Source: Chloranthus sessilifolius
Lineage: Eukaryota > Streptophyta > Magnoliopsida > Chloranthales > Chloranthaceae
Assembly: GCA_021018995.1 (NCBI GenBank)
Contig: CM037588.1
Coordinates: 88,262,765-88,326,764, forward strand
DNA length: 64,000 nt
Reading direction: 5' to 3'
Positions 1,804 to 60,757 of the stretch are shown in pieces. Under the pieces are notes generated by a model that was given only the letters and a program-made list of their open reading frames with translations, did no database searches and was not told the DNA's origin. Position 1 is the first letter of the stretch, and every line of letters begins with the position of its first letter. Both the position numbers and the translations under genes were made by a program.

Positions 1804-1810
1804 TTTATAG
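1804..1810 (-). promoter_or_regulatory. TATA-like box for the A extra ORF
   Basis: On the minus strand the sequence reads CTATAAAT about 190 bases upstream of the ATG at 1614, directly downstream of the palindrome array at 1810-1995. The equivalent position in element F also has a TATA box. Confidence 0.45.
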
Positions 1811-1995
1811 TTTGTCCTCGCTCGAACGGTCGTTAGTTATCGCTCGAGTGAGCCCAGAATGCTCACTGATATAATTTATGGCCTCGCTCGAGCGAATACT
1901 AATCCTCGCTCGAGCGATGCCAGAATACTTCCTGTTTATTATTTCATGTGGCTTGCTCGAGCGAGTATAATTTCTCGCTCGAGCGAGCCAAGCGA
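1810..1995. repeat. TCGCTCGAGCGA palindrome array, internal copy (element A)
   Basis: Six copies of a degenerate 12-16 bp palindrome (consensus CTCGCTCGAGCGAG) with non-repetitive spacers, at about 1816, 1839, 1883, 1905, 1953 and 1974. The same motif forms a 14-copy array in the 5' LTR of this element (11268-11660). The sequence on either side does not match between the two places, so it is not simply an LTR copy. Confidence 0.85.
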
Positions 1996-2245
1996 CGTTG
2001 TTCTGGTTCTCTTAAGTTAACATCTTCACTGGTCTCTTCTCGCATTTAGAACACCTCTCACACATGACTTTGTATGTTGCACATTTACATTTTAAATCAC
2101 ATGAAAAGTTGTTCAGGCAAAAAGCTGATTTATTATGCACGAATTTGTAATTGCCCTCATTTGATTTGTTCAACTATGAATTGATAGACTGTCAATTTTT
2201 ATTTTTTTTACACCTTATGATATTTAAGAAAAACAAAAAAAATAA
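1996..2245. other. Spacer between array and chromodomain end
   Basis: AT-rich, no gene; it separates the pol stop codon from the palindrome array. A homopurine/T-rich stretch lies at about 2205-2245. Confidence 0.4.
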
Positions 2246-3745
2246 CTAGATAGCGTTCTCAAACAAGTTGGGATATTGTTCTCTGACATCTGCCTCCCGC
2301 TCCCATGTGTCTTCCTCGGCTGCATGATTCTTCCATCAAACAAGTACTAAGGGAATGACTTTCGTACGTAGCACCCGTTCCTTCTTATCCAATATCTCCG
2401 CCGGTTCCTCTATCATGCTCATGTCTTCGTGCATCTCTAGTGGTTGACCTTCCAAAATGTGGGAGGGGTCACCCACATACTTCCTGAGCATAGAAACGTG
2501 GAAAACATTATGTACCTGATCGAACACTGGAGGTAATCCAATGCGATATGCAACTTCGCCAACTCGGCCCAACACTTCGAATGGTCCAAGATATGGTAGA
2601 CTCAGTTTCCCTCTTTTTCCAAATCTCATAACGCCCTTCATCGGTGACACTTTTACGAAAACGTGTTCACCCACCTTATAATCTACACTGGTTCGTTTGA
2701 TATCAGCGTAGCTTTTCTGCCTGCTTTGAGCCGACTTAAGTTTTTCTCTAATCATTCTGACGACTGTAGCATTATCCTCTAGTAACTCGGGCCCTAAAAC
2801 AAATTTCTCACCAGTCTCTTCCCAATTGATGGGTGATTTACACAGTCTTCCGTATAATGCTTCATACGGTGCCATCCCAATGCTCATCTGAAAACTGTTG
2901 TTATATGGAAATTCGATCAATGGTGGATGTTGATCCCACGATCCTTGCATTTCTAGCATACACGCTCTGAGCATGTCTTCTATTCCTTGATTTACTCGCT
3001 CTGTCTGTCTGTCTGTTTGCGGATGGAAAGCTGAACTAAAATCTAGTCGCGTTCCCATTCCTTGAAATTTTTTCCACAACTTTGATGTATATAACGGATC
3101 TCGATCGGACACTATCCTTCATATAGAGTTCTACGAGTTTTCCTGCCGTGTACATTGTATTGTAAGGTAAGAAGTGTGCTGACTTGGTCAGTCGGTCGAC
3201 GATTACCCAAATGGCATTATATCTCTTTGCCGTACGCGGTAGTCCAACGATGAAGTCCATAGATATTGATTCCCATTTCCATTCTGGTATAGGTAGGGGC
3301 TGCAATAAGTCTGCGGGATGTCTATGATCAATTTTGACTTGCTGACACATCAAACATCGTGATACGTACTCTGCCACGTCTTGCTTCAAACCTCTCCACC
3401 AATAATTCTTTTTCAGATCTTGATACATCTTCGTGCTCCCCGGGTGGATAGCATAGCTTGACTTGTGGGATTCATCAAGAATCATTTGTCGTAAATCGGC
3501 ATTGTCCGGAATACAGAGATGGCCCTTAAACAATAAGGAGCCATCCTCCTTGATTGAAAAGTCGGATCTGATGCCCTCGGTAACATCTTGACGTATCTTG
3601 GTCCGTACTGGGTCTTCTACCTGAAGTTCTCGTATATGTTCGAATATCACCGATTTCACTGATATATTGGCCAAAAAGGCTCCTGTAGCTGGTGACTTGA
3701 TGTCCGCACCATATAGTGCTAGATCTTCCAATAGTTTCCATCGGT
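2246..3745 (-). pseudogene. Integrase with GPF motif and C-terminal chromodomain (element A pol, broken)
   Basis: Catalyses insertion of the cDNA. In minus order I see the HHCC zinc finger (the 'YAIHPGS.KM' stretch and 'CLMCQQVK'), the first catalytic Asp in 'SMDFIVGLP', the second in 'SDRDP', the catalytic Glu region 'HPQTD.QTERVNQ', the GPY/F motif as 'LGPF', and a chromodomain ending near 2246. Breaks: a short deletion with frameshift near 3110 removes about ten residues just before 'SDRDP' (element F keeps them), and an in-frame TGA at 2336-2338 lies in the chromodomain where chromoviruses normally have a residue before Trp-Lys; CGA to TGA is the simplest reading. The frame then runs on to the natural stop at 2246-2248. 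Chromodomains of this class are thought to direct integration to heterochromatin. Confidence 0.88.
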
Positions 3746-4253
3746 GTATACCCAAAACTAGACTAGCCAACTGAGCTGAACTCTTCCGATTCAAGGCATC
3801 GGCCACTACATTAGCCTTGCCTGGATGGTACTGTATGGAACAGTCATAGTCCTTGAGGAACTTCATCCATCTGTGCTGCCTCATATTTAGTTCCTTCTGT
3901 TTAAACAGATATCTGAGGCTCTTATGGTCGGTGAAGATTTCAAACGTTTCTCCGTATAAATAATGTCGCCATATCTTCAATGCGAATATGACCGCTGCTA
4001 GTTCCAGATCATGTGTCGAATAGTTCTTCTCGTGCACTTTCAATTGTCATGACCCATAAGCTATTACCTTTTTATGTTGATTTAGTACACAACCCAAACC
4101 GTTACACGAAGCATCACTGTAGACCGTGAATCTTCCACTGCCTGATGGAATGGCTAACATTAGAGCTGAAGTGAGTCTCCTTTTGAGTTCTTGAAAACTC
4201 TTCTCGCACGCTTCACTCCACTCAAATCTTGAATCTTTTCTTGTAAGCCTCAT
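3746..4253 (-). pseudogene. RNase H domain (element A pol, broken)
   Basis: Degrades the RNA strand during reverse transcription. Catalytic-type residues are visible in 'YSDAS', 'LELAA', '[10 protein letters not shown]' and 'VADALNRK'. An in-frame TGA at 4047-4049 interrupts the domain shortly after 'AYGS' where an Arg or Gln codon is usual. The frame is otherwise continuous with the integrase. Confidence 0.87.
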
Positions 4254-5130
4254 AAGAGGTCCCGATATCTTTGAAAACCCCTCAACGAAACATCAATAAT
4301 AACCTGCCAGTCCAAGGAAACTTCGGACGTCTGTCACGGTCTTTGGTTGCTCCCAGTTAACTACTGCCTCGATCTTAGCGGGATCTACTGTGACACCATG
4401 CTTTGAGACGATATGTCCCAAAAAGCTAACCTCTTCTAACCGGAAATCATATTTGCTGAGCTTGGCATATAATTGGTGTTCATGCAAAGTTTATAGAGCA
4501 ACCCACAAATGTTCTTCATGCTCCGTCTTTGATTTTGAGTAAATCAGAATGTTGTCAACAAACACGACAACGCAGGAGTCTAAGTGGGGTTTAAATACCC
4601 GATTCATTAAGTCCATAAATGATGCTGGTGCGTTAGTCAATCCGAACAGCATCACCAAAAATTCATAGTGTCCATACCGTGTTCTGAATGTCGTCTTCTG
4701 TATGTCCTCAGCCTTGACTCTTAACTGATGGTATCCAGATCTCAGATCGATCTTGGAAAAGTAATTCGCTCCTTGTAACTTATCAAACAAGTCATCTATT
4801 CTTGGCAACAGGTATCGATTCTTCACAGTGAGTTTGTTCAATTGTCGATAGTCAATGGACAACCGCATCGACCCATCTTTCTTTTTCACAAACAGAACTG
4901 GTGCTCCCCATGGAGACACGCTTGGTCTTATGAACCTCTTATCCATGAGCTCTTGCAACTATTCTTTTAATTCTTTCAACTCAGCGGGAGCCATCCTGTA
5001 TGGTGCCTTTGAAACTGGCTCCGTTCCTGGTGCTAAGTCGATAGCGAATTCCACTTCTCTCTCTGGGGGTAATCCTAGCAATCTTCGAGAAATACGTCTT
5101 CAAATTTCCGCACTACTGCTATTTCAGAGA
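4254..5130 (-). pseudogene. Reverse transcriptase (element A pol, broken; YXDD box is FVDN)
   Basis: The RT core is clear: '[21 protein letters not shown]', '[22 protein letters not shown]', '[14 protein letters not shown]', '[12 protein letters not shown]' and 'SFLGLAGYY'. The catalytic box reads F-V-D-N instead of F-V-D-D, which removes one metal-binding Asp; the related element F keeps FVDD. Stops or frameshifts occur near 4258-4290, 4488-4490 and 4959. This copy could not make active RT. Confidence 0.88.
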
Positions 5131-5869: not shown

Positions 5870-6064
5870 TGTTAAGACCTAAAAAGTACACTTTTCACCC
5901 CTTAACTTAACCTTTGATTAGACCCTTAGCCACCTAATAAGTTCTTGTTAAGTGTTTTGTGTAGTTAATAATCAGCAGTGAAATAAGGCCAGGAATCCTG
6001 TTAAAGAGCCTACTTTGGCACCAGATATCCCTCAGAAGAATGAACTCTGAATCCAAACCTGAAA

Positions 6065-6760
6065 TGAGCCTCGCGCAGCTGACCCAAGCTTTAGAGGATT
6101 CAGGAGAAATATTCCTCGCGCAGTTCAACTGAGCTTCCCAAGACTTTACAGCAACCTCTCGCGCAGATGAGTGACTGAAGAACTTCAGAAACTCAAACTC
6201 GCGCAGCTCTCGCAAAGCTCAAGAGTAGAACACATCACACAATGTTGCGCAGTTCAAAGCAGACCTCTCTCAATCTCGCGAAGTTCGCTCAGAATGGCTG
6301 AGGAGAGAGAGCATCAGAAGAAGAATGCCTCGCGCAGTTCTTGTGCCATTCAAGAAAGAAAACATGCTGGCGAAGGCAAAGCCAACCTCGCGAAGATCAA
6401 ATGAGACATAGAACCTCACGCAGTTCAGAACTCAGTAGAGCCTCGTGAGGTAACTCGCGAAGTCCAGTAAACAGAAGTGCTCGCGAAGTTATCACGCTAC
6501 TCAAATTCACTCTCGCGAAGATCAGCCCAGCGAAGATCGAGCGACCTCACGACTGCTTGAATTTCAACCCCGCGACACTTGAGACTGTGTTTTCTATTCA
6601 ACCTCGCGAAGCCCAATCCAGCGAGAGCGCAATTCTCTACCGCGCGACTGCCTAAAGAGAAAACCAAGGCAACCTCGCGACGGCTAAAGCTTCAATGTCA
6701 AATCATCCTAGCGAAGAGCAAAGAGCTACCACGCGACAAGTCTGGGAAACTATAGCTACC
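6065..6760. repeat. CTCGCGAAG motif array in U3 of LTR B
   Basis: More than twenty occurrences of CTCGCGA/CGCGCAG-like words (core palindrome TCGCGA) spaced irregularly through about 700 bases, for example near 6070, 6113, 6159, 6275, 6330, 6449, 6605 and 6673. It ends about 190 bases upstream of the TATA box at 6951. Coding frames crossing it are chance. Confidence 0.8.
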
Positions 6761-6950
6761 TAGCAAAGCTCTGACCCTAAACTTCCATCTCTTCAGTAGA
6801 GGACCTTCTGGGTATTTCCAGCAATTAGGGCACGCACTCTCATGCTCAAATCTCTGTGCACACACCCCGAGGCATCCAAGGATCATTATTAGGCCATGTG
6901 GCATCATTAAAATTAGGGTTTCCTAACCCTAATGTGCCGCCACCCCACTG

Positions 6951-6959
6951 TTATATAAA
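6951..6959 (+). promoter_or_regulatory. TATA box of LTR B
   Basis: TTATATAAA in a CG-neutral stretch after the motif array, at the place expected for the U3/R boundary of this LTR family. Confidence 0.6.
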
Positions 6960-11227: not shown

Positions 11228-11267
11228 CCCCATAAATTGTACTTAAAATTTATAAAATCCAAGTAGG

Positions 11268-11660
11268 GTCTCGCGCGAGCAGGAACTATTCCTCGCTCGA
11301 GCGGTCACTTAACTTCGCTTGAGCGAGTATTTAACCTCGCGCGCGCGGTTAAAACGAGGTATCAACCCTCGCGCATGCGGTCACCCTAAATCGCTCAACT
11401 GACTTCTTTTCATCACACGAGCGGTTAAAATGAGGTGTTCAATCCTCGCGCGAGTGAGTATTATTCATCGCTCGAGCGGTTAAAATGAGATCACTCGAGC
11501 GGTTAAAATGAGCCATCTGAAGCTGTACGTAATGCCTCGCTCGAGCGAGCCTCCCCTTTACTTTGGGTCTCGCTCGAGCGGGCCCAGAATGAAATCTGTT
11601 CTCAAGTTTTATATTTTTTCCTTGCTCGAGATAGCCATTTAGACCGCTCGAGCGGACCAC
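11268..11660. repeat. TCGCTCGAGCGA palindrome array in A LTR
   Basis: About fourteen copies of a degenerate palindrome centred on CTCGAG flanked by CGC/GCG, at about 11271, 11292, 11315, 11334, 11367, 11391, 11411, 11444, 11466, 11490, 11535, 11567, 11619 and 11642. Spacers are unrelated to each other. CpG density is far above the surrounding AT-rich DNA. Confidence 0.85.
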
Positions 11661-12128
11661 GACAGAATTAAGTGCTCGATTAGTTCGAGAAAAAGATTTC
11701 TTTCTCCATTCTAAGGCTTATAAATGTTAAAATCATTCATCTATTATTTCATACTCTATTAAACACACACATAAACATCTCAACCCATACCTCAATCGAT
11801 AGACCCCGTATAATCTCGATCTTAGTTTCGAAACAGATGAAAAGGGTCTCCACAGTTTCTTGTAGTCTACCAGCCTCCATCTTTACAAAACCCTCTCTCC
11901 TTGTTCTCTATTTTTCTCTCCTCTCTATTTTTCCTTCTCTCTAACTAGGAGGAATTAGGTTACGTATGAGAGATTTCTCTCACTTTTCTCTTATATAGTG
12001 AAAACTAGTGTGTTTTGCACACACACACACCCTCAGTGTGTACATGATAGTCTTGGTTTCCTTGTGAACCACACATACATGTGTATGATACATGACGTGT
12101 ACGGTTTACAAAAATCTGAGGTTATGAC

Positions 12129-13687: not shown

Positions 13688-14030
13688 GCCTCGCGAAGAT
13701 CAGGTAGCTTAGCGAGCACTTGTCAAGCTAATTTTTGCCCTCTCGCATGGCTTAGTGAACTTCGCGAGCCTCAGTTCGAGTGGACAGGAGGATCTCACTA
13801 GTCTCTAATGTGTAAATCTCATCAGTGCAAGATCCTCGCGAGACCCTTATTCTCAGCGAAAGTGCCTATCGCGAAGCTCATTATGAACTGCATGAATAGT
13901 GAATGATCTTGCACCGGACTGTGCGACAGGTTTATTCCATGCCTATTTCAGGTCGTGAGGCTCAATTGCTCCAATCTCATCCTCACGACATCCTTGTGAG
14001 AGCCTCGCGAAGCACGAGTTTCCTTGTTTT
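13688..14030. repeat. CTCGCGA motif array, internal copy (element D)
   Basis: About twelve TCGCGA-like words (for example near 13690, 13709, 13757, 13836, 13868, 14003) in 340 bases. This is the same motif as in the U3 arrays of LTR B and the D 3' LTR, here placed between the integrase and the extra ORF. I found no clear TATA box between it and the ATG at 14408. Confidence 0.75.
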
Positions 14031-14407: not shown

Positions 14408-17404
14408 ATGGCTGATAAATCCCCATTTGTGGAAGACCTAGTTGCCCTATTGAACCCTCCACCTACTGACCTCCCCATGGCCATAAGAAATTCAGTGAGG
14501 ATTGCTAAGGCTTCCACTGTAGAGGGCGCTGATGCCCCTGTACCCCCATCTAAAAACCCTAAGAAGAGGGCTGCCCCAAAGAAGAGGGCAAGGACTGCCA
14601 CTCTGAGCCCTAAAAAGTCCAAGAAACAGAAGAAGGGAAAGGAGGTTGTCCCTGAAGTTAATCCCCTGACAACTCCTAGTGATTTTATGGCTGCCATCAA
14701 ACTGGAGGCAGAGACGGCCTTTGAAAAGGAATTCTTTGAAAAAGAACCCTTGACTTCTCCATCCATGGACTTCCTTACCAAAGGCTCTTTAGAGCCCTTG
14801 TGAAGCCCTTGTTGGAACTAGTGTACCCCAGATTGGTATATCGATTTTACCAGAACATCAGGGTCAAGAAGGATAATGATGGAAACTCCGTATTGCTGAT
14901 CCTAGTGGATAATTTTGAAATGTTAGTGGATCCATTTGTGATAGCCCATGTCCTAGGGATACCAGTTGCCTACAACCCAGAGTCTACCTTGGGAGGACCT
15001 CTAACTGTCCCCATTGTTGTGATTGCAAAGAAGATAACACAAGGGAAGAAGGCTTCAGGAGACTCCATCAGGAGGAGAGACTTGGAGCCCAGTCTGCTTT
15101 TCACGGATCATGTTCTGGGAAAGAACATCTATGTGACTGGGCACCAACAGGAGAGAAGGGCACCCATAACTGATGCCATCTATAGCTTCTCTCAGGGGCA
15201 TTGCTTTGGTGTTGCCCAACTGATCGTTGATGGAATGATTAACATCCATCTCAAGGTGCAAAAGAAGCAGAAGCCCCACGCACTACCATATAGAAGGCTG
15301 ATTACAACACTGCTAAAAAAGGGGGGTTATCCATAAAAGATAGGGGAGGAAACAGAGACACTGGCCCTTGTGGAATTTGGAAGAAGAGTGTGGACAATTA
15401 GCATCTCCATGATGGGGAAGAAAAAGGAGTCTAAGGTTGCACCTACCATTGAAGAAGCTGCAGCAGCTTCCACCTCTCCAGCCACCTCAGGAGCTGTCAG
15501 CCTACCCACGTTTACCACTACATCAGTAGGCCGTACAACTGCCAGCTATGCCACACTTTCCATACACCATCAGCCACCAAACACCATCAGTCCCTACTCC
15601 ACAACCCACACCCACTCTTACCCTTATACCATCAGCCCCTACTCAACAACCCACACCCACTCCTACCCTAGTGTCAGCTCCAAGTCAACCCACATTCCCA
15701 TTTACTTTACCCACACCACCCATTACCAGAAAATATACCAATAAGAGAGCCTCTAAACCATCTGAAGTACCCACTGAACCTCCCCAACCCATTTCCTTAC
15801 CAGACCTTACTCCTTTACTTCAGTCCATTCAAACCCAAGTGCACCCAACCACTACAGCTGTCCCCATACCAGGCCCTCTTCCAACCTCAATAACCACCTC
15901 GATTTCAGACCTACCTACACCTTTTCCTTATGATGACAGTGAACCTTTCGCCACTGACAGTGACCAACCCAATACCTCTACACCCATTAAACCTGACACA
16001 TTTGACCCCTTTAACCATTTCATTCACTTTTTCTCTTCCCATGACCTAGACTCATACACCACTGAGGGATTCTCAGCCATGTTAGACTCCATTGTGGAGG
16101 GCGTTAGGTATGAGTTCACACCTTTGCCAGATTCACCACAGCCTACCCATTTCACCCCTTCCCCAACATCCCCTCCACCAACCCAATTCAACCATGCCCC
16201 AACCTCATCTTTCCAACCCATCCTAACCACCCGACCCACAATCCCAACCATTCCAGAGCCCTGATACTTTTCCTACTTACCTCGCTACAAACCCATCTTC
16301 TTGCAAATACCTAAAACCAAACCACCCTCTAAACTAGCCTACAATCCATCCAGTCCACACTTCTCAACTTTACCCGAACACCCCACCCACCTACACATAT
16401 CTCCATACCTATAACTACCCCCCTCCTTCACCATAGCCTTTATTTTCAGTACCTACAACCACAGCTTCCACACAAACAAATCCTCATATTGAGGACCTGA
16501 CCGTGGTCCCAGTTCCCCTACCTCACCTTAGCCACTACCTTCTGTGGTGACAGCAACTGCTGCCACACAGACACACATTGAGCCTGTGGAGTTGACCCTT
16601 ATCCAACCAACCCTGGCCTCTACCTCCACCCAGACTGATCCTGAGGTAGAGGAACTGCCCCTCCCACATTTAGCCTTCACCTCTACCTTCACCAAAACTG
16701 ATTTGGAGGAAGAAAAGCTACCCATTTTACCCATTTTCACCTCTACCTCCACTCAATCAGACCCTGAACTAGAAATCCTGCTCCCTATCCCACCTTCCAC
16801 TACCTTTGCGTCCACCCAAACTAATCTTGAGGAGGAGCTGGCAACAACCCGTCCACATCTATCATCTATCCCATCATCCTCATCCACTCCCTACCCTACA
16901 TTTGAGGACCCTACAGAAAGGGTCATGGTTCTTGCTGCCTCCAACCCCATGCCACCTTTCTCAACCCTCACCCGAGCTATGAAGGGAAATCCCTATATCA
17001 TGAGAAGGGTAGCTGAGCTCAACTCCAGGATAAAGCAGCCACTACTAGTTGAGATTGCTCAACAGCAACTAGACCATAGAGGTGAAAAGAGGAAACTAGA
17101 GCAAGCTGTGTTGCAAGCCCTAAAATTATACCAAGTATACAAGGAGAAGGCAGAACAGTTGGCAAAGCTTGCAGACACCCTCGAAGCAACAATCTCAGTC
17201 ATGAAGCCACCCTCAGCAGCAAGAGTGTCAATCAAGGAGCCTTCTCAACAACAGGGCAGCACCAAGCCCAAGAAGCCAGCTGCCAAAAAAACCAAGGTTG
17301 GTGCTGTCAGTGCTGACACAGTGAAGAAAGAGAAGAACAAATATGAAGAGAAATATGGCTGGACCCCTAATTTTGTCCTGAGCTCAGACTTAGATTTAGA
17401 CTAG
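14408..17404 (+). pseudogene. Extra ORF of element D, PF20167-like domain plus Pro/Thr-rich and coiled-coil parts (broken)
   Basis: Starts at the ATG at 14408. Residues 45-80 are Lys/Arg-rich and look like a bipartite nuclear localisation signal. After a frameshift near 14800 comes the domain shared with 319-1614 and 41466-42675 ('YPRLVYRFYQN', 'NIYVTGHQQERRA', 'LPYRRLITTLL'). A second frameshift at the G-run near 15321-15326 leads to a long Pro/Thr/Ser-rich segment (15370-16260), then, after a low-complexity gap, five tandem 21-residue repeats with TQT-like cores, a predicted helical segment ('EKRKLEQAVLQAL' to 'LADTLEATI') and a Lys-rich tail ending at 17404. The G element keeps a homologous C-terminus. 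Ancestral length was about 1000 residues. The position matches the 'env-like' ORF of Athila, but I see no signal peptide or transmembrane segment. Function unknown. Confidence 0.7.
16556..16850 (+). repeat. Tandem 63-bp coding repeat (TQT-motif peptide)
   Basis: Within the D extra ORF five peptide repeats of about 21 residues have cores TQTH, TQTD, TKTD, TQSD and TQTN at residues 8, 29, 50, 70 and 91 of the frame opening at 16544, each followed by an acidic EVEEL-like stretch. The regular phase shows duplication in steps of about 63 bases. Confidence 0.75.
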
Positions 17405-19689: not shown

Positions 19690-20110
19690 AAAAGCCCCCT
19701 TGTGCAGCGCTCGCTTCGCTCAAGCCCGCAGCAGTAAAAGAACATGCATAGATCTCATACAGTGCACTGCAACAAACTTAAAGCTCACACACATCTTGTG
19801 CAAATGAAGAGGAGAGAGAGCCCCAGAAAATATTCTCGTGAAGTTCTCGCATATACCCCGCACGCTTCAAAGAGAAAGCCAACCATGAGAGATGTGCATT
19901 CCATCCTAACGATCAACCCCACGCAGCACGAGAGATCCTCGCGACTTGAGCCACCTGGACCACCATCTGCGCCAGCTATAATATCCATATCAAGAGATCC
20001 TCGTGAGATGCACTACTCACTGCAATTCAACTTCACGAGCTATAGTATTTACACCAAAAGATCCTCGCGAGCTACCTTTCATCCACGCGACATCCACGCG
20101 AGATACAGAA
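19690..20110. repeat. CTCGCGA motif array in U3 of D LTR
   Basis: About ten TCGCGA-like words (near 19707, 19831, 19936, 20000, 20066, 20086 and 20095), thinner and more decayed than in LTR B. It ends about 220 bases upstream of the TATA-like box. Confidence 0.7.
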
Positions 20111-20328
20111 ATCAAGCATATTTAGCCTTGCAAGGCTCAGGATCCCCACTTCTCAGTCCATGCACAGGGACACTTCGGGGATTTCCCCACTTCTAGGACA
20201 CGTCCTGAGGTTCTAACCTATTTCCCACTTCTCGAGGCATCCAAGGGTCACAATTGGGCCACATCTTCAAGCAACAATTAGGGTTTTTCTCTTCTGTTTT
20301 CTTATTGGCCAAGGCAGTGAGAGACTTT

Positions 20329-20337: not shown

Positions 20338-21640
20338 TTGTGCTCATGGCTGAAATAAACATCTTCTCCTTTTCTTAAGTTGGCTATGAGCTCCAGAGTG
20401 TTTAGGTCATTTAGGGTTAGGGTTAGGTCATCCTTTTTCTTTTCTTCTTCCTTAGCTCAGCATTTGTTGGCTGAGATCTTTTGTAAGAAGAGAGTATACT
20501 TCAGTTTGTAATGGGTTTGGTTTTGGCTTTGGGAGCTGATTTGGGTTTTTACACTAGCTATTGCCTTATGGGAAAACATTGTAAGTTTCATTTTAAATCA
20601 ATCCAATGCCATGTTTATAGTTTAATTAAATCTGCATTTCCTTGTGTTGGTAACATAGGGTCTTATAGGTTTGATGCACCCATGGCTGCTTGAGCTTTTG
20701 TAGCCCTGTAACCATGGTGGCAGCAGCAGTTTTCTTATTCTATCTCATCATCTGTGAGGAAGATAACCTCTAGGATAGCCTGTGATTATTGAAGTGGACA
20801 GACTATAGCCTTAAGGTTGGTCTTAATCACAAATTTAAGATGAAATCTTCTTCTCTGCACTTGAGCTTGTAGCCAAGTGAGAGATAGTTGCAGAACCAAA
20901 CTCTCCTTTATCTTGCCATGCCATCATCAGTTCTTAGATCTGTTATTCTATAGAGATTGCAGACTTGTGAGTTGGGTCATTACAAGCCTTTTGTAGCAAT
21001 GACCAGATGAATCTAAGTACCCATTCAGCCTCTGATTGTCTATGGTTTCCACTAAATTTTTAAGGGCTAATTGTTCCTATGGATGCACGAGCTTTTGTAG
21101 CTTTGCAAACATAGTGTCTACAATGATGTTTGTGTTATGATTTGATCCATTGAATGGAGGAAATCCCTAGGATAGTCTGTGACCATTGAAGTGGATAGGC
21201 TATAGCCTTAAGATCAATCCATTCCCTTGGGTTAGGTGAGCCTTACAGATGTGCTTTTTTGGTAGCCATCTGAAGCTCTGCTGCAAAGCCATTTCTAGAT
21301 CTGAGTTGCATTACTGAGTTACTCTCAGCTGCTTACTTCTCATCATTTTATCTTTATTTCAACTAACCACCATCATCCTTCGTAAACCCTTTCTCATACT
21401 ATAGGACTACGTTTATTTTATTTTATATTTTAATTTTAGTTGTGACAACCCCAAAACTCCCTTCTTTAGGATTACTAGATTTGTACTTAGATATGGAGAT
21501 CTACTAACATAATCCTTTTTGGGTTCTCGATCAATCATCCCTGCAGGATAACACTTTCTTATCAAAACTTGCTACAACAGGCCCTGGATCTTGCAGGACT
21601 ATGTGTATTTTGAGATTATTATGTTCATCCATTCTACTCA

Positions 21641-22871
21641 ACTTTTTGATGTATTTTTGCCACCATATATTTACCACACATCACACCAATAATCAAGCAA
21701 TCTAAAATTAACCAACACCGGTGACGCACCCCCTGGTGGAAGAAGAGAAGAGCACTGCCCCAAGGAATTACATCAAGAATGCATGAAGCACTCGATCTAC
21801 AGCCACTCCCGACTCCATGACAGGCTTGCAGCACGTCATCACCTCTCAACTCCGAGTGGCATCTCGGAGGAACGAAGCCACTAGTGAACGTGTCAAAGAA
21901 CCAAGTGACACGGACCACTCCTGTCCCCAATCCGCTAAAATGATATGCGACCCCAAGAATTTCCTCGCATACCGCCAGATAGTCCCCGTCCATTCGACAG
22001 GTCACCGGCTCCCCCTCAAACTTAAGTCTAATAATGCAGACCCAATCCTCTGGGGTCGGCAGCATCAGCCCAATTGGGAAGAACAATGCCTGCTGCTCAT
22101 CTCTCCACCTCTCAAAGATCGCTCCGGTCAGACCTCGGTCGACCTAGAAGGGCTTCAACTCTAGAATCGGCCCGAAGCCAAAAGCCATCAACCGTGCCTG
22201 CTGGAACTCAGGTAGGGTATGGTACCAGGAATGGGGCTCTGAACACGCGGTGCTGATAGCCAGCACCAGGGCTCCTAACAGGCGATAAATGAAAAAAAAA
22301 AAAAAGAATAAGATAAGACTAATAATTACACTAAAACTAACGATAATTACAAGTAACAAGTAAACCTAGTAAGATAAAATAGTAATCACAAACCACAACA
22401 ATCATCTATTAAGCACGCAAAACATGATAAAAGACAGAACGATAAAGTAAACGTGCCTAAAACTATACACAGATTATGCATGAATGTGCACTTACACTAG
22501 ATGCAAGTTCGACGTAAATAAAAGGGGTTTTCAAATCCTAGATGTCTACGTTATAACCTAAATGTAAAAGTAGACTCTTGCTTATGGGTACCGACCTGGT
22601 CTTGCGCGAAGAACTCCCCTAGAGGGATGCATATCACACCCTCCCCCTGAGGCGGGGTGGCATCGTCGTCATCATCCTCATCCGCCTCATCACCACCCTC
22701 CAGTGCCTCCTCCCTCACCACCATCTCAGTATCGCCCTCCACCACAGCCTCAATGCCGGTACGAACCACAGAGGTCTCACCAACTACCCTCACCATCATC
22801 TGCTCAAACTCGGAAGCAGTCAAGCCAACTCTGTAATTACCCTCAGACTCTTTCTCAGAAGCAAAGCTCAA
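21641..22871 (-). pseudogene. Plant mobile domain (PMD) ORF, split by a probable intron, truncated by element D
   Basis: ATG at 22871. The first exon (to about 22551) encodes a short acidic protein ('DEADEDDDDD'). The frame then meets AT-rich DNA with a pyrimidine tract and CTGTTAG acceptor near 22283, after which a continuous frame reads 'FGFGPILELKPF', 'ERWRDEQQALFFPIGLMLPTPEDW' and 'LKFEGEPV', the signature of the aminotransferase-like plant mobile domain (PF10536). One TAG lies after 'LELKPF'. The D LTR at 21640 cuts off the C-terminus. PMD proteins occur both as host genes (MAIL1/MAIN family) and inside gypsy or Mutator-like elements. Here the surroundings and the promoter array shared with the K LTR indicate a TE-borne copy, antisense to the plus-strand Tat-type LTR K. 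Confidence 0.65.
22284..22550 (-). other. Probable intron of the PMD ORF
   Basis: AT-rich, non-coding, with a 14-base pyrimidine run followed by CTGTTAG on the minus strand at its 3' end. The exact donor is not certain; one candidate lies near 22590 within the end of the open first exon. Confidence 0.4.
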
Positions 22872-23032: not shown

Positions 23033-23044
23033 GGCGTGGCCTGA

Positions 23045-23394: not shown

Positions 23395-23399
23395 ACAGC

Positions 23400-40110: not shown

Positions 40111-40129
40111 GAAACCTAAAATAAATAAA

Positions 40130-41465: not shown

Positions 41466-42675
41466 CTAAGCATCACCCAACTGCTCATCCTCGTCGTCAT
41501 GTCCGCCTGCTCTAGAACTAGAAGCGTCAGGAATATAGGCGCGTGCCGCCGCCATGCACTGGAGATGGTTTGATGGGTACATGAAGCGCATGGTCTTAGC
41601 CATCAACACCTCGTGGTAATTTAGACACTGGCTCAACTGATGATTGAGGTGGTGGGGGCACACACATCAGAGCACGCCACTGAGGTGGAGCTGCAGTTGC
41701 TGGCTGGTCCTGATCTAGTGCATCATGTTCACGTTGCTCTTGATCTTGAGGAGCATCGAGTGCAGCATCAAGTGCAGGTGGTACTTGTTCCTCTGCCCAC
41801 AGGCTCTTCTTCAACTGATTATAGGTCTTATTCCAATCCTTGAGAGAGTAGAGCTTCACATTATTGGTCAATTGCAGCTCATCATCCGAAATAGTATACT
41901 CCTCACCTCCCTGATAATCTTCAATCATACTGGATATAAGGCGAGCATATGGAATCTCGTCTACCAGTGTCACTCCCCCTCCAATATCTTTCCTTTTGAA
42001 TACTTCATGCCCCAAACACAACCTTTGGGGCACTAAACCATTGGCCCGAAAATCCAGAAAATAATGCTTGCTGTAAAACCCTAACCTCTCGGTCTTATGT
42101 TTCATAGGGTAAAGGTTGCATTTGAAAATTATATCCAACATTCATAAATGACTAGGCAAATCTACTCTTTTAAATGCCTGACCTGACCCCTGCCTGCCCT
42201 GGGTCATCTTCTCTATGACTATATAAAAATCAACTGGTTTATGATTTGGCTCCCTTAAATTGATCCCGGTACCATAGTCAACATAGCACTCAAGTGTGTT
42301 GGCAGCATGGTCATGAGTGAATTCATACACTTTACCTTCAATTTTAGTACAAACAGTGCTTGGTTTATCACCAATGTACATATTTTGGTAAAATAGTCTT
42401 ACCAAATGGGGGTAGTAGTAGTCGTGAAGTGGTTTGAGTAGGATCTCTAACCTGACCTTAGTAAGGTAATGAAGAGCCCATTGTGTTATACCATGTACAC
42501 CCCGCTCTTCGAAAAGTGCTTGATCAATTATATATTTAGTCTCAAAATCCTTAGACGCCCACCATGCATTAGGTCATTCCCGTGGTGGTGGTGGTGGTAG
42601 CTGCAAAGAACCCGATCGTGTAGTGGGTTCCTTCGATGTCAAAGGTTTAGACGCACGCCTCGTCTTAGGTGCCAT
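41466..42675 (-). pseudogene. Extra ORF of element F, PF20167-like domain (broken)
   Basis: ATG at 42675; a basic N-terminus ('MAPKTRRASK') and poly-Pro run precede the domain, as in element A. Shared features are 'YYPHLVRLFYQN', 'MLDIIFKCNLYPMKH.TERL', 'EIPYARLISSMIEDYQGGEEYTISDDELQLTNN' and an Asp/Glu-rich end, stop near 41466. Breaks: a TGA after the poly-Pro run (about 42572) and a stop/frame change near 42142. Length is about 400 residues. Same strand as pol and directly behind a TATA box and ATCGATCGAT array. Confidence 0.72.
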
Positions 42676-42913: not shown

Positions 42914-42920
42914 TTATATA
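42914..42920 (-). promoter_or_regulatory. TATA box of the F extra ORF
   Basis: Minus strand GATATATAAGGAAA, about 240 bases upstream of the ATG at 42675, immediately downstream of the palindrome array. Confidence 0.55.
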
Positions 42921-42924: not shown

Positions 42925-43258
42925 GCAAATCGATCGATCAATTTTCAAATTTGATCGGTCGGTTTTCATATTAACCTTGTCGCCTAATAATATTGATCGA
43001 TCGGTTTCAATTTCGATTGATCAATTTCCAAAATCGATCAATCGGTTTCCATTTCGATCGATCAATTTTCATCAATTTTATCAGTTCATATTTTGCTCTC
43101 TGATTTTTTGAATTTGATCGATCAATGTGCATTTCGATCAATTGGTTTCAAAATCGATTGATCGATTTTAATTTCGATCAATCGGTTTCATAGATAAAGC
43201 CTGTGTCTCTTTTCTATCAAATCGATTGATCGGTTTGTACTTCGATCGGTCAGTTTTG
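42925..43258. repeat. ATCGATCGAT palindrome array, internal copy (element F)
   Basis: About twelve copies of a degenerate palindrome (AATCGATCGATCGATTT family, variants ATCGATTGATCGGTTT) in pairs separated by AAA or TTTC. It matches in motif and layout the LTR array at 53640-54125; the DNA just beyond it (43255-43330) also weakly resembles the LTR past its array (54120-54190). Confidence 0.83.
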
Positions 43259-50724: not shown

Positions 50725-52943
50725 TGTTGAGCAGTGAAAAATACCATTTTTGACCTCCTAACCTGACCTTTGATGGACCTATGAGTTGACTAATAATTTG
50801 TTTTGAGTATGTTTTGTAGTTAAGCAATAAAATATAGTCATAGTGCAAACAACCCTCTAAAAATGCCAAAGAAATGGCCTGCTGCTCAACATGTACTCAT
50901 GCAGCCCAAAAGGCCAGCCATCAAGCAGTCACAGAGCCCCTATGGCAGTGGCATGTGTCAACATAAGCACACATCAGAGCAAGAGCAGCTATAGTGAATA
51001 AAGGTTGAACCCCTCAAAAGGTGCTGAGTGCTGGACAGATGAAGAACAACACCCCAAAACTTTGTGCCAGCTGTGGAAGCAAAGGATAAAACTTATCGAG
51101 AGGTTAATTCAACCTGTCGACAGGTTCGCATGCTTAGATATGAAGCTATCGAGAGGTTCCATCAACCTATCAAGAGGATCTGAAGGTATACACGAACCTG
51201 TCGAGGAGTTAAACTTGAAGAAGGTAACCTGTCGAGAGGTACTGAGGTGGAAAAGTGAAGATTTTGACAGGTTGACAGAATCTATCGAAAGGTTTGAGTT
51301 GCAGCATAAGAACCTGTCAAGGACTTACCTAGAGATGTAGGGGAACTCGCGAGGTTCCACCTACATGTCAAGAGGTTCCCCAGAACCTAGCGAGCAATTA
51401 ACACCAACCTGTCGAGGACTTACCTAAAGTTGCATCTATTTTTTACGAGGTTGAGTCAACCTGTCGAGCACAACTTCCAACCTGTCGAAGATTCAACTAG
51501 AACTGTATAAGGAATAGACAGATTATTTTATAACCTATCAAGAGAATAGATGGTGCTCAGACAGAAGTTAAGAATTAATGTCAACCTGTCGAACAGAAGA
51601 AAGATCCTATCGAAAGCTCACTCCAACTTGTCGAATGGGGCACCAATGGAACTCAAAACTTGTCAATAGGTTCCCTGATCCTCTCGAACCACGATTTGGG
51701 AACTTCTCAGTTCCAGCTGTAGCTGCTGCTCACTTCAGTTCTCTGTATACACATTCCAAGGCACTTCAACAACCCTTGGGGGTATTTTTAGAACACAAAT
51801 GGGCATGAATGGGAACTCTCTAACCACTTCTAATGTACCTATCCATTTTGGACCAATTAGTGGAGAGTTTTTAGAAGCAAAATCAGCCACATCAGTAGCT
51901 CAGAAAAACAGAATGATTCCTTTGAGCTATGATTGGCTGAAATAGATCTAAGGACAGAGAGGAAGAGTATAAAAGCCTAAGGAGTTTATAAAAGAACCAT
52001 CTCGAAATTGAGAGAGCTCAGACCAAAATTCAAAAATTCCTTCCGTCTTCCTTCTTCCCCATTCACTCTTTAGACCAACCATGGTGGGCTCTTTTAGTAA
52101 CTAGGGTGAGGTTGAGAGCTATAAATTGAGAGGTTCAAAGCTTTGTAGGAGGATTAGATGTTACACAGATTGCAGAACTGAGAACAATTGAACTGTAAGT
52201 TGTATTGATTCAGTAATTGTTGAATGTAAAGTAAATTTGGATCCATAAATCTCTTGATTTCCACTTGATTTCGCTACATCTAATATCCTTGTGGATGCCT
52301 GAGCTTGTAGCCTTGCATCCATAGCATCTGCAATGGTTTAGTTATTCCAATTAAGACCCTTGAATTAGAGGAATATCTAGGATGATCTGTGACCATTAAA
52401 GTGGATAGATCATAGCCTTAGAATCACTCTAATCCTTTGGTCTAGGTTGAAGTCATATACCTTGCATCTAAACTTGTAGCCAGATGAAGAATTATTGCAG
52501 ATAAGTTCCCTACACTACCTATGAACCAATCAATTTTCAGTAAAAGACTATAATCCCTAGCTGCTACTCTCCTTCTTTTGATTTTAATCCCTTTTTCCAT
52601 TTACTTAAATCTGTATTTTAATCAGTTTTGGATCATTTGCTCTTATCTTTAATTTTTTTATAGTTTTAGTAAAGTGACAACCCTCAAAAACCTCTCCTCT
52701 TTCCTTTCTTGCTTTGTTTTAAACTAGGATAGGCTAGAGTGCGAGATCTATTATAGATCTGGAGATTTACTACATTTTATAGCACATTTCCCTGTGGACC
52801 TACCTGCTTACCCCTTAAAGCTTGCTGCAACAACCCTGGTTCTTGCAGGCCTAATTGCTTACCCTGATCCCATTTCTCTGTGATTTTGCCTCTTAGTTTG
52901 CTAATTTTAACCCTTTAATAATTGCAAGGTAAGCAATACAACA
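50725..52943 (+). repeat. LTR of element G
   Basis: TGTTGAGCAG to ATACAACA, 2.2 kb. CCTGTCGAGAGG array at 51090-51690 (about sixteen words), TATA box GAGTATAAAAGC at 51965-51976. It is followed directly by F LTR sequence at 52944. Confidence 0.87.
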
Positions 52944-54719
52944 GGAGCCACACATATACCGATGGGAACCCTAACCATCGTTGTTCAATGAACTATTTAC
53001 ACAATGCCCAAGCCCCTTCGAATAAAGTAACTTGTGCCGAACAAAGTATTACCGCAGAACGGTAATTAAAGAATGGATATCCCGCTGTACCGGAGCACAA
53101 AGGTTCGTTTTGCATGAATTCTTAAATCAAAGTGCGAAATATAACTTATAGTTTATCACCATGAATTGTGATAATTTATACTAGATTTGAAGTTTAAGTC
53201 TCAAAGCTTACACACATACTTATGAACACCTTTCTGATGTCACACACACACATAGCTGATTTCACACACACACATTTCTGATTTCACACAGACATAAATC
53301 TCTCTCAGTGCACATACACGCACACTTTTTATATTTAAAACCATAAATGAAATTTATGCTTATCAAATGAAAAAATTCATAAATCACACACATTTCCATC
53401 ACATCACTAAATCCATGATAGTTGTAATCAAATACACATGTTACAGAGTTTTTCCTACCTCAAAGCGAAGCTAAAACGAAGACTCCTTTGGTCCAAGCTA
53501 GCCTTTCTCGCACATGCTCATGCTCACACCTAGAACATGCAAATTCACCTCCCGTAAGTCATAAATGATGAGAAACAAGAAGACCTAAAGTTTTCCAAAG
53601 TTCTCCTTACTAAAAGCAGAAAATCTCAGAATCTATCCAAATCGATCGATCGATTTCCTAACCGATCAATTGATTTTCAAAATCGATCGATCGAAATATA
53701 ATTCGAACGGTCGATTTCCTCAAACAACCTACACATTTCTCATGCCACAATCTAAGTGATCATTTCCCAAATCAATCAATCAGATTCCAAATCGATCTAT
53801 CAAATTCCATTTCGATCGATCAGTTTTCTTCAGAAAACCACATACTTTTGGAACTACAATCCGATCGATTGGTTCCCAAATTGATCAATCGGTTTCTAAA
53901 TCGATCGATCAAATTCCATTTTGATCGATCGATTTCTTCATAAACTTTAAACTTCTAATATGCTCACTGTTTTCAGATATCGATCAATCAATTTTCAAAC
54001 CGATCGATCGGTTTCACAAATTGATCGATCGAATTTCATTTCGATAGATCGGTTTTTCCAAAAACCTTCACATTTTTGCTCTGGAAAAATTGATCAATCG
54101 GATACTTATTTCAGTCGATAGGTTTTGTCAGATTTCTCATAAAACAGGTTTCAACTTCCCAATCTCATTTTCCTTCAAATTTAACTCCCATTCTTATAAT
54201 TTTTCACTCACATCATACTTAAAGTCTAACATAACTATAAATCACAATTTCACATATCTTTGCTCACCTCAAAGTAGTTGATTCCCCGATCCACGTGCTC
54301 TCGCCCAAGAAAGGATTTCAGAGTTGAAATTTTGGCGATTCTCTTCGATCCTAAATCCCCAACATCAAGCCTGGACTCAAATCTTACACACACACACACA
54401 AACCATGTTTAGAGCTCTCCTTCCTTCTCTCTCTTCTCAATAAATTCTCAAACAACCAAAACAAAAGAAATGAATTCTCTTATCAAGTGAGCTTTTATAC
54501 TTAAAAGCTTACTCCTTCGGTTTTAAGTCATTACACCGTTCCTTGAGGTACGATATTCCATCCAATGGTCAATATCACTACTAACTCAAACATTTTCACT
54601 CAAAACTTATTCTCCCTCTTTAACTTACTTTAATATTTTTATACTGTCAGGTGCGTGACCAGTCGGGCATGCACACCGAGATGGATTGTTCAGAAGTCGA
54701 AATTTTTCAGGACGTCACA
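52944..54719 (-). repeat. 5' LTR of element F, main part
   Basis: Resumes with GGAGCCACACATATACC, as in the 3' remnant at 41188, and ends GACGTCACA. Holds the ATCGATCGAT array. TATA-like candidates on the minus strand are at 53326-53336 (AAATATAAAAA, downstream of the array) and 54491-54500 (GTATAAAAGC, upstream of it). CA-repeat tracts lie at 53240-53275 and 54389-54403. Confidence 0.8.
53640..54125. repeat. ATCGATCGAT palindrome array in F LTR
   Basis: About seventeen palindromic words in blocks of three or four, starting near 53640, 53767, 53860, 53975 and 54085, separated by 30-50 base spacers; within blocks the words are joined as AAATCGATCGATCGATTTCC. This is a two-level repeat with an outer period near 110 bases. 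Confidence 0.85.
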
Positions 54720-57800: not shown

Positions 57801-58079
57801 GATAAGGGATGGGTTAGGAGCTTACTTAAGAGCTAATTGGTTTAGCAATTAGGTAATCCCCCATCTAAGGTTTTTTTGGGTTTTCAAGGTCCTAGGGTTT
57901 TGGGAAACTGGTTTCAATGGTGGATGATGGGGTGAGACCATGGGTGACTTAAGGGTTGCCAATAAGCTCAAAGGGGGTGCAACCAATCTCAAGACACCCA
58001 CCCCAACCCAGGGGATGGTCAAAGGGTCAAACTAGATGGAGGAAATTCGAGCTACTGATGACAGTTACTGTAGCTAAGC

Positions 58080-58300
58080 TGGGCGTATATATTATATACA
58101 CCTAGTTTAGGAACAGTAATTTTCACCAAAATCAGGGGAGTTTTGAGAAGATGAAGCCCGTGGTGGGTCCCACCTATACTGGGCGTATCTATTATATACG
58201 CTCGGCCAAATTTTCCCCAAAATAGGTAGGTGTATATAATATATACGCCTGAGTAATCTGGGGTAAAAATGGCTGGGCGTATGTAATATCTACGCCTGAG
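58080..58300. repeat. GGGCGTATATA palindromes in J LTR, four copies
   Basis: Imperfect palindromes of 22-25 bases at about 58080-58102, 58180-58203, 58229-58252 and 58273-58299, built as GGGCGTATATA, central T/A, then the inverted half. Confidence 0.85.
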
Positions 58301-58684
58301 TAAATTTTTATGATTTCGTGTGAAACTTCAATCGGCCATAACATTTGAATCATAGCTCCAAATTGGGTGATCTTTGGCTTGTTGGAAAGCTGAAGAAGTC
58401 CTCTTTCCAATGGTATATGGCTCATCTATGGTACTGGTCTGTGTGAAATTCTGTAGCTCTCCTCCCATCAACCACCAGAAGGATTTAGGTTAGGTTTGGG
58501 AAGGGATTCTAGGGTGTAGGGGTGACTTCTAAGGATTGGGGGAATGGCTCTAAAGGTCTTAGGGTGATTCCTACTGGTCTAGGTAGGTTCCTAAGGGTTC
58601 AGGGGGGTGCCATCAGAAGCACAGGGGTACATCTCTCCCGAATTACAGATTGATCGGGCCTTGGGCCGAATTTGGGTGTCTACA

Positions 58685-58699
58685 GATGCCCCTCTTTGG
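58685..58699 (-). promoter_or_regulatory. Polypurine tract of element J
   Basis: Minus strand CCAAAGAGGGGCATC abutting the LTR start, matching the tract of K. Confidence 0.7.
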
Positions 58700-58730
58700 T
58701 ATTCGATCACTAATGATCGGATGCCAAAGA
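58693..58730 (+). other. 17-bp stem-loop overlapping the J polypurine tract
   Basis: Arms 58693-58709 and 58714-58730, loop CTAA. Fifteen Watson-Crick pairs and two G.T positions that would be G.U wobbles in plus-strand RNA (antisense to J) but mismatches in the sense RNA. Confidence 0.7.
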
Positions 58731-60682
58731 CAAGAGACATCCGAAGAGGTCCAAGGCATGTTTGATGGGTCCGCCTGGTTCAACTCAATTCTCAAACATT
58801 CATGGTGATGGTGAGTGTACGTAAGCCCTCTCATTTCGGGATATCATCCATACCTCAGAGCTAACAGTCCCCAAGTGCATTGCGACATTACTGGGCATAA
58901 CTGCGATGATCACAGAAATTGTAAGCCCGCTAGCCGGGATATCATCCACTTCCTGAGGGAAATTATAGATTTATGATGTTGAGTATTAACCTGAACCAGA
59001 CAGCTCCATGAAACGGGATGATCGATCTATGCTTCGAAATTGATGCGAAGCACCCAAAGCGAAGGCCTACAAATTCGAGCCCAGTCCTGTGGGATATTGA
59101 CAGCTCCACTGGATTGGCCACGGATGCCCTTACCTAGGTAAGGCTCAGAGTCTTTGGGCGAACCCATCAACCTCGAGGTTGCTTTAGCATAATTGGCCCG
59201 AGTGGAGCGAATATTGATGTCGCAACACTTCTTGGGAATGCATGCCCATTTTCTGAGTAATTTTTTTTTTGAGTCATTTTCTGAATTTTCTTTGGCCTCG
59301 AGGCCTCTAAGCAGAGCTCGATGACCTCTGACAATTTTATTTTTGCACAACTCTTTAAGTGGATCAAATGTCAATTGATATGCTTTAAGAATGCGTGCGC
59401 TCTGCCAGGGATAGGTGCGCCTGGGGGATGTGCTCGTTCCAGTGGTGAGGTGCCGCTGATTCACATGAATCAGAATGCCTTAACTCGAGACAAAGCTAAA
59501 AAGATCGGGCTAGAACCAAACATCCCTCGAAAGAGGGGGCTAATTTCTAGCCTCCGTCTCTAATGAAATCACATCCTACTAACTATGCACAGACAGACAC
59601 CCATTAGGGGCGATAAGCAGCAAATAGGCGCGAACAAAAGCCTCGACCCTAAGGTACAATTTACGAGGACAACGACCATCCTATGGATACCCAGACGCAA
59701 GTGCGTACATTCAACAAGGACACCGTGCCTATACAGGTTTTAAGCCTGTGTAAAAGAAAATAAAAAGGGAAAAGAGCCCTTTGGTCTGTATGTTCGCACA
59801 TAGTTTGGTTGGTTGTAATTTCATTTTTGACGGGTCAGTTTCGACTGACAATAGACTTTTTGAATGGTCTGAAGTCGGGGGCACTCTTGGTCAATATCAA
59901 TCCGAAGGCGGATGACTAGAGTGAATGCCAGAAGGTGGGGTCAACCCACTCAAGGTTTTCGCTAAGTAGCAATAAGTTGTTATTTCTTCTCCTTTTCTTT
60001 CTTTCCTTTTTTTTTTCTTCTTCTCTTTTTTCTTTCCTTTTTTCATGTCAGATGGAGACCCTGGGCACGCTCAAACTGCCATTATTTTTGCACGTATCCT
60101 TAGGCGAATCAACTTGCCATGTTGATACACCTTAGGGATGTGTGCATTCCGGTGATGGGTTCTTGGTTTGCCTGCCGGATCAGGCCTTGACTCTTGCTGG
60201 GGGACTCTGTAGGGAACAGTGACCGGAGATGGGCAAAATTACCTGCCTGCCGGGTCAGGTACAAAATGTCCCTGCCTGAAACGGGGTTCGAGAGCTTTCG
60301 GGTGAACCCGATCATTCCGAATTGATTTAACACGGCTCTCGGAGTGGGGCAAACAAGCGTTGCGACGCTCTTTTGAGAACCAGCGTTGTATTTTTTTATT
60401 ATTTTTTTTCTTTCATTATTTTTTTCTCTTTTTTTTTTCTTTTTTTTTTTATTTTGTGGGCGCATTAGGTGGGCGCCTACGGATCTAGATCCGTTTATTG
60501 TAGCACGGTCCCTTTGGGCCAATCAAAGGAAACTCGAAGGGTCATTTGGGGATGCGTGCACCATGGCCGATGACATGTGGGCCTCGAAGGGGGTCCAGAT
60601 CGAGGTCCATAGCATACAAGGGGGCCATTGGGCCTTAAAATCGAAAAAAGGAGCTCGGGCAGTTTAGAAACTGCCATTTTTG
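58731..60682. other. Non-coding 3' region of J, left part
   Basis: About 2 kb without a recognisable protein. Short repeated phrases such as TTGATACACC, GCCGGGTCAGG/CTGCCGGATCAGG (60170-60265) and two T-rich blocks (59985-60045 and 60390-60455) are seen. Open frames here are short and unsupported. Confidence 0.45.
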
Positions 60683-60757
60683 GTCGGGCGTATATAATAT
60701 ATATGCCTGACCAAAATCTGGCGAAAAATGGTCGGGCGTATATATTATATACGCCCG
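60683..60757. repeat. GGGCGTATATA palindromes, internal copy (element J)
   Basis: Two copies: an imperfect one at 60683-60711 and a perfect one at 60733-60757 with 12-base arms CGGGCGTATATA around a single T. Same motif as in the LTR of this element. Confidence 0.88.

Follow-up and report, generated by a model that had tools for sequence, protein, structure and literature searches.

Why should several families of long terminal repeat (LTR) retrotransposons, nested within one another in a single stretch of plant DNA, each carry in the LTR an array of short palindromes of its own, and why should the same palindrome recur in front of an extra gene? We have considered this question in 64 kb of Chloranthus sessilifolius DNA (contig CM037588.1; the whole stretch is called the window here) and in the 2.17-Gb assembly to which it belongs. 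In plant LTR retrotransposons, such extra genes are usually labelled as envelope-like or as being of unknown function. In our reading, which is tentative and which we hold to be close to evenly balanced, the product of the accessory open reading frame (ORF) would be a self-encoded DNA-binding regulator that acts on the LTR and on its own promoter in a two-site circuit. The elements are designated by letters, and the lineage names chromovirus (A and F), Athila (B, D and E/G) and Tat (H and J) are labels taken over from a preliminary description of the window and not tree-based.

The elements A and F, both on the minus strand, share one order of parts, namely an internal array, a TATA box and then the ORF. 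In A, six sites of CGCTCGAGCG at 1819..1986 (spacings 22, 44, 22, 47 and 22 bp) are followed 9 bp past the last motif by the TATA box TATAAAT (1803..1809) and by an accessory ORF of 301 amino acids at 712..1614. The LTR array of the same motif lies at 11260..11670 and has 7 sites with up to 1 mismatch or 14 with up to 3, most commonly spaced by 22 bp; a TATAWAW match is found 5 bp past its lower edge and a second one 342 bp before the array. In F, the internal array of CGATCGATCG at 42931..43253 (12 sites with up to 3 mismatches) is followed after 10 bp by the TATA box TATATAA (42914..42920) and by an accessory ORF at 41599..42675, which is homologous to the A ORF and broken by stop codons into the pieces 42574-42675, 42145-42573 and 41599-42141. 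The F LTR array at 53643..54122 has 17 sites with up to 3 mismatches, mostly 20-21 bp apart. With up to 1 mismatch, the only copies of CGCTCGAGCG in the window are 7 in the LTR array of A and 6 in the internal one, and CGATCGATCG has 9 in the LTR array of F, 7 in the internal array and 1 elsewhere. A and F are related elements, 70% identical in their DNA over 3.6 kb, and both are Ty3-type, as RVT_1 and Tf2-1-like SH3 models matched and copia models did not; the pol pieces of A (reverse transcriptase, RNase H, integrase zinc-binding and Tf2-1-like SH3) lie at 2339..4958 on the minus strand. Their motifs have the core TCGA in common and differ next to it by an exchange that is symmetric; TCGA is also central in the E/G sites.

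This order of parts bears on whether the palindromes act in DNA at all. They might instead act in the RNA, for packaging, dimerisation or translation, and the LTR arrays may indeed be transcribed; a TATA box precedes them in A and F. In both elements, however, the internal array is itself upstream of a TATA box. A gapless palindrome of 10-12 bases could form only a short stem, and it is hard to see why sites in RNA should be spaced by about two turns of the DNA helix. We regard a function in RNA as very improbable.

How specific is each motif to its family? In a table of fifteen arrays against six motifs, allowing up to 1 mismatch (3 for J), the counts are nearly block-diagonal, and none of 200 shuffles matched the own-motif counts for A, F, B/D, the E/G type or J. 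The family-specific LTR arrays of the preliminary description are confirmed, with H weak. The motifs in this table were partly picked after the arrays had been seen, a bias which is avoided by learning motifs from single arrays and by a new family, P, described below. For the former, an 8-mer was learned from one array and its best cluster elsewhere in the window was recorded. The 8-mer from the A LTR array ranked the A internal array first (13, with the F LTR as runner-up at 7), that from the F LTR array the F internal array (15, runner-up 3) and that from the J LTR array the J internal array (4, runner-up 2). For the D LTR, the B LTR came first (11) and the D internal array second (6); the D internal array gave a tie between the A and B LTRs, and the B LTR ranked an E/G-type LTR first (6), with the D arrays at only 4 and 3. 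Learning failed for one H array, where the A LTR ranked first and the other H arrays did not. In an unbiased count, 12 of the 14 top 9-mers come from four palindrome families (CGCTCGAGC, the AACCTGTCGA group, ATCGATCGA and CTCGCGAAG), the two others being poly-A and a word from a 61-bp tandem array. In a scan for palindromic 6-mers, the A, F, B and D arrays account for nine of the ten top clusters. The remaining one consists of TAATTA and belongs to a 35-bp tandem array; other words form weaker clusters below these.

At loci sampled from the genome the motif goes with the clade of the ORF, as had been proposed. We sampled 20 A-clade loci of 131 scored matches (10 at 89-93% identity to the A ORF and 10 at 79-85%), 6 F-clade and 16 D-clade loci of 150 scored matches each, and the best 8 PF20167 loci of the genome among those scored, which belong to a family P that was not seen in the window; all ten second-clade A loci and all six F loci had been chosen as apparently free of stop codons. 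The palindrome with the best enrichment before the ORF is CTCGAG in 18 of the 20 A loci (none in 2), ATCGAT or CGATCG in 5 of 6 F loci (none in 1), TCGCGA in 8 of 16 D loci and GACGTC in 7 of 8 P loci (none in 1). At the same threshold, any enriched palindrome is found in 7/119 window segments outside the arrays and in 2/20 ORF segments. With a fixed motif set, own and foreign copies before the ORF number 112 and 3 in A, 28 and 2 in F, 58 and 0 in D (where 14 of the 16 loci have at least one copy) and 56 and 0 in P, and no own-motif copy lies inside the ORFs of A, F or P. For the LTR regions, where the counts cover the A and F loci, the figures are 150 and 5 in A and 39 and 1 in F. A cluster of the same motif is present in the LTR region of 19/20 A and 5/6 F loci, and both the LTR region and the site before the ORF are filled in 17/20 and 4/6, which bears out the claim that the motif is common to the LTR and the ORF's promoter region.

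Linkage within one element explains part of this association. Different host transcription factors may have been borrowed as LTR enhancers, the same enhancer being put before the accessory gene, whose product would then do something else such as movement, an envelope-like role or RNA binding. Since linkage alone pairs motif and gene by clade, the association by itself leaves room for such host factors; arrays of palindromes close to a TATA box are nothing unusual for activators of the host, and the likeness of LTR and internal arrays extends beyond the core into the flanks. On the other hand, the motif changes together with a homologous ORF in each of four clades, foreign copies being few, and the difference between the A and F motifs is a symmetric change round the same core. 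A single factor that changes its specificity should read both arrays, because both differ together between families. We consider binding by host factors to be unlikely, if a serious alternative. The points that are stronger than the association with clade are the joint change of the two arrays, the distance to the TATA box in A and F, and the palindromic cores outlasting their spacers.

With regard to distance, the first TATAWA after the last motif is found in 17 of 18 A arrays, 13 of which have it at 11 bp and 4 at 33 bp, and in all five F arrays at 8-13 bp; it lies at 14 bp in 2/7 P arrays and at 18 bp in 1/8 D arrays. The commonest spacing of palindromes in A is 22 bp, both upstream of the ORF (70 cases) and in the LTR (78). 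In F it is 20-21 bp and in P 20-22 bp, where about double that value comes next, and other spacings are about 21 and 31 bp in the E/G type and 30-32 bp in the D LTR. These values are near whole turns of DNA. When all spacings are counted, the F arrays, two tested E/G-type arrays and the D LTR (p 0.03) pass a test for helical phasing, and the A, B and D internal arrays fail it.

With regard to conservation, the core is more alike among copies than the spacer in the second A clade (0.90 versus 0.70 in 10 loci; 0/167 mask shifts) and, more weakly, in the close A clade (0.89 versus 0.81 in 8 array-bearing loci; 14/167 mask shifts). Information per position was excluded as evidence because the copies were picked by their cores. 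A low mutation rate is an unlikely cause of this conservation, because the CpG-rich cores show signs of past methylation: the observed/expected ratio of CpG is 1.5-2.4 in the A and F arrays and 0.5 in the window, and CpG transitions account for 33 of 41 deviations from the motif core in F (42931-43253 and 53643-54122) and for 11 of 22 in A, which suggests from the sequence that array copies of both elements were methylated in the past. The ORF itself is also constrained. Open A ORFs of more than 295 codons are present at 13 of the 20 loci (ten of the 20 had been chosen as open) and in the window, and the median ratio of nonsynonymous to synonymous substitution (dN/dS) is 0.11 (range 0.07-0.31) over 91 pairs of these 14 ORFs and 0.19 within the close clade, an estimate that leans to constrained copies because open frames alone were taken.

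The conserved cores bear on the possibility that the arrays are by-products of tandem duplication and of copying between LTR and internal site, with no binding protein at all. Regular units and shared flanks would agree with such an origin, the 35-bp tandem array at 40108-40412 also holds a palindrome cluster (TAATTA, ATTAAT), and the accessible part of the literature describes family-specific tandem repeats of unknown function in Retand as well (PMC11963269). But the palindromic cores are retained better than the spacers, a difference that is clear in one A clade and weak in the other, the layout and spacing are common to families and the TATA distance to A and F, and the 61-bp and 84-bp tandem arrays of the window are not among the palindromic 6-mer clusters. 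An origin without any binding protein is, in our judgement, highly improbable.

The traces of methylation raise the question whether the product is mainly an anti-silencing factor, which binds the arrays and removes methylation so that transcription follows. The preliminary description had drawn this comparison with the VANC proteins of VANDAL elements, which according to the accessible part of the source bind short motifs in family-specific tandem arrays in non-coding parts of the element (PMC5735166). The arrays support the comparison, as here too the motifs are short and family-specific and stand in the non-coding DNA of the putative factor's own element, and the CpG-rich arrays of A and F with their frequent CpG transitions would fit it. 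It does not extend to the protein: VANDALs are DNA transposons, and the DUF1985 domain of VANC found no match up to an E-value of 10 in ten ORF pieces of the window. The VANC motif YAGTATTAY is not a perfect palindrome, and the accessible parts of the VANC papers describe no link to a TATA box (PMC5735166, PMC10398659); the short distance between array and TATA box in A and F points instead to a promoter function, which these accessible parts do not report for the arrays of VANC. We think that a mainly anti-silencing role is improbable.

What is the product of the accessory ORF? Sequence comparison shows homology among the accessory ORFs of A, F and D (A-F 31.7% identity, E 9e-43; A-D 28%, E 2e-23), which the preliminary description had overlooked. 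All three are PF20167-like. The family cut-off of PF20167 (Transposase_32) is 45 bits, and the scores of A (31 bits, E 2.8e-7), D (34 bits), the A-clade locus L012 (32.5 bits) and one F piece (16.9 bits, E 0.006) lie under it, while the other F piece and the F-clade piece L049 gave no match in this search. The ORF of family P scores 66.7 bits and so lies over the cut-off. Its tie to the A and F ORFs rests mainly on the Pfam profile because the pairwise similarity is weak (P-A E 2e-4, P-F 3e-6, P-D 0.026). The A ORF contains a KKR run and no strongly hydrophobic stretch; the top hydropathy over 19 residues is 0.74 in A, 0.83 in the F pieces and 1.83 in the D core piece, as calculated with no dedicated transmembrane predictor. 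Protein databases, searched with the A ORF, the D piece and their alignment, returned no relative, and viral contigs returned none for the first two or for a pol piece of A. A kinship between the PF20167 family and the PMD piece of H was also considered and is unsupported (hhalign probability 5%).

Family P was found without a motif prior, among the top PF20167 loci of the genome; the loci L001-L008 and L055 are the best PF20167 matches among those scored. The one P element examined is Ty1/copia, with RVT_2 at 134 bits, a copia-type gag and the PF20167 ORF, and its Sirevirus lineage is putative. It looks young because its LTR copies are 99.1% identical over 561 bp, where the 3' copy is cut by the end of the fetched stretch and the LTR is possibly longer. 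This element has 2 copies of GGACGTCC per LTR and 8 before the ATG of the ORF, and its core CGGACGTCCG bears the CGG-CCG signature of Sirevirus boxes.

These boxes, which the preliminary description had also overlooked, show that the layout was already known in Ty1/copia. The accessible parts of the 2010 paper by Bousios and colleagues describe palindromic, element-specific and CpG-rich boxes in the LTRs of 13 Sireviruses, all of them Ty1/copia and all but one with the core CGG-CCG (PMC2829016). A linker cluster is reported in the 9 elements with an envelope-like (ENV-like) gene and is absent from the 4 without, and 77 of 79 linker copies lie upstream of that gene (PMC2829016). The likeness lies in the presence of boxes both in the LTR and upstream of the extra gene, which we see in 17/20 A loci, 4/6 F loci and the 1 P element examined. 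The difference is that A, F, D, E/G, H and J have other cores, P alone having CGG-CCG, and that A and F are Ty3-type by their pol pieces, whereas Sireviruses, like P, are Ty1/copia. The Sirevirus boxes bear on host factors in two ways. A comparison with host factor sites recovered mainly stress-related ones, which favours binding by the host; the linker cluster tracks the ENV-like gene (9 versus 4), which speaks for the gene product, though a host-driven promoter also fits (PMC2829016). The accessible parts of that paper contain no proposal that the product of the extra gene binds the boxes (PMC2829016). A literature search, mostly short of full text, found no paper linking such arrays to PF20167 ORFs in Ty3 elements. 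As far as our searches show, what is apparently new is the layout in Ty3 families with other cores, the presence of a PF20167-like gene on both sides, and the tie of the motif to the gene clade and, in A and F, to a TATA distance.

In foamy viruses an accessory gene lies downstream of pol. As far as the accessible text goes, its product Tas (Bel1) binds to response elements both of the LTR and of the gene's own internal promoter, and its C-terminal activation domain is acidic (PMC517496). By analogy, this is a closer layout than that of VANC: A and F likewise have an array, a TATA box and an ORF with the same motif in the LTR, as known here from sequence alone. A stretch with a net charge of -21 in 80 amino acids lies at 322..561 on the minus strand of A, in the frame of the ORF by coordinate arithmetic and past stop codons, and can be set beside the acidic domain of Tas with that qualification. 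Binding has been demonstrated for Tas and is predicted here, and the accessible part of the source describes no palindromic family code (PMC517496). Among plant elements, accessory ORFs of Grande, Retand, Athila and Tekay often lie near the 3' LTR, and some of their products are nuclear or predicted to bind DNA; in the accessible parts of these papers no link is made between an LTR array and an array before the ORF (PMC7264820, PMC11963269, PMC11728184). PF20167 has been seen previously in a sunflower Athila ORF.

If the self-encoded regulator is modelled on Tas and its internal promoter, the ORF product would be a nuclear protein that binds the family palindrome as a dimer, with dimers possibly sitting side by side on one face of the DNA. 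Once bound, it would activate its own promoter and the LTR, and keeping DNA methylation away may be part of the same act. The families would have drifted to different palindromes, each product acting on its own kind. About as tentatively, we suggest that PF20167 proteins, which are now filed as putative transposon or envelope-like proteins, may form a large set of sequence-specific DNA-binding regulators across Ty1/copia, chromovirus and Athila elements. A palindrome code particular to each clade would be read at the LTR and at the promoter of the gene itself; it would change by symmetric steps, so that each element switches on only its own family. As array and gene are laid out alike in Ty1/copia and Ty3 elements, with a TATA box between the two in A and F, these genes can be given a function that is open to test, namely self-recognition and control of the element's own transcription. 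If this is true, it would be clear how a single retrotransposon family can become active while its neighbours do not, and natural pairs of protein and palindrome would be at hand for study and for chromatin targeting.

Several observations weigh against a self-encoded regulator. The association of clade and motif is partly expected by descent, as motif and ORF share one element, and flanks are shared by LTR and internal copies above a shuffled control, which fits copying between the two sites. No TATA box follows the array in 7/8 D, 5/7 P and 1/18 A loci, the LTR array of F has no adjacent TATA box, and in the LTRs of A and F a further one stands upstream of the array. Seven of the 16 D loci have no enriched palindrome and one has another word, TCATGA. 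Four 5-kb pieces downstream of P copies, one of them half masked, contain no GACGTC cluster. Helical phasing is not significant in any array when each spacing class is counted once, and the spacing of the B array is irregular. Profile searches recognised no DNA-binding domain in the accessory ORFs, a search for related solved structures gave one chance-level match only, and an AlphaFold model of the A ORF was unusable (mean pLDDT, the predicted local distance difference test, of 38 from a 4-row alignment). Finally, the internal pair of J has no identified ORF in the window.

The preliminary description had extended the internal array to D, J and H, and the array before an accessory ORF to D and H. 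For D both parts stand. On the plus strand, an internal array with 6 sites of CTCGCGAAG at 13690..14012, within 400 bp of which no TATAWAW was found, precedes an accessory ORF region at 14408..17401 (pieces 14408-14800, 14740-15333, 15530-16261 and 16532-17401, with the PF20167 match at E 3.4e-8 in 14740-15333), and the LTR array with its TCGCGA core lies at 19690..20120 (3 sites with up to 1 mismatch; spacings 102 and then 30-32 bp). The Athila-type LTR of B, also on the plus strand, carries at 6050..6780 an array of CTCGCGAAG/CTCGCGCAG with 15 sites at up to 1 mismatch, and CTCGCGAAG occurs 5 times elsewhere. For J, on the minus strand, the recurrence of the motif holds: GCGTATATWATATACGC has 3 sites in the LTR array (58070..58310), 2 in the internal pair (60680..60765) and none elsewhere, with up to 3 mismatches.

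For H, the internal recurrence is weak. The half-site AATTGCGCRC has 2 matches with up to 1 mismatch at 23040..23420, 2 at 35320..35670 and 3 at 38830..39280, all on the minus strand, and 3 elsewhere; between 0 and 2 of 200 shuffles reach these counts, and the H LTR is not delimited. The PMD ORF behind an array and a TATA box is seen in one broken fragment only, where the TATA box lies 8 bp past the edge of the first of these arrays, an edge set by eye, and the PMD piece at 21637..22143 on the minus strand matches PF10536 at 32.3 bits (E 7.8e-8), under the Pfam cut-off of 34.9. The TATA box between array and ORF is upheld for A and F, with H depending on this fragment.

In the Athila-type LTRs of E/G and in one inside the LTR of F, all on the plus strand, AACCTGTCGA is counted 11, 16 and 14 times, with 4 copies elsewhere. 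The arrays lie at 23775..24339 (16 sites of the 14-base form with up to 4 mismatches), 31156..31780 (20 sites, spacings mainly about 21 and 31 bp) and, inside the F LTR, 51009..51672 (19 sites); no internal E/G array was seen within the window.

Some further repeats were noted. F-like ATCGAT/CGATCG arrays lie within about 8 kb of 6 of the 20 A-clade copies (L010, L011, L014, L020, L027 and L028). The 61-bp-unit tandem array (11.6 copies, 61402-62113) is located downstream of an integrase-like ORF piece of J on the minus strand, the 35-bp-unit array, with its clusters of AT-only palindromes, near a remnant of the F LTR, and the 84-bp-unit array within H at 38119-38354. The minus strand at 35850-37500 has many copies, seen by eye and uncounted, of a word like GATGGGAC. 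A similar tract around CTGTGACCATT.AAGTGGA is common to the Athila-type LTRs of B, D and E/G and to the one inside F, at 7272-7910, 20679-21237, 25031-25143, 32437-32560 and 52376-52479, and is present twice in B and D.

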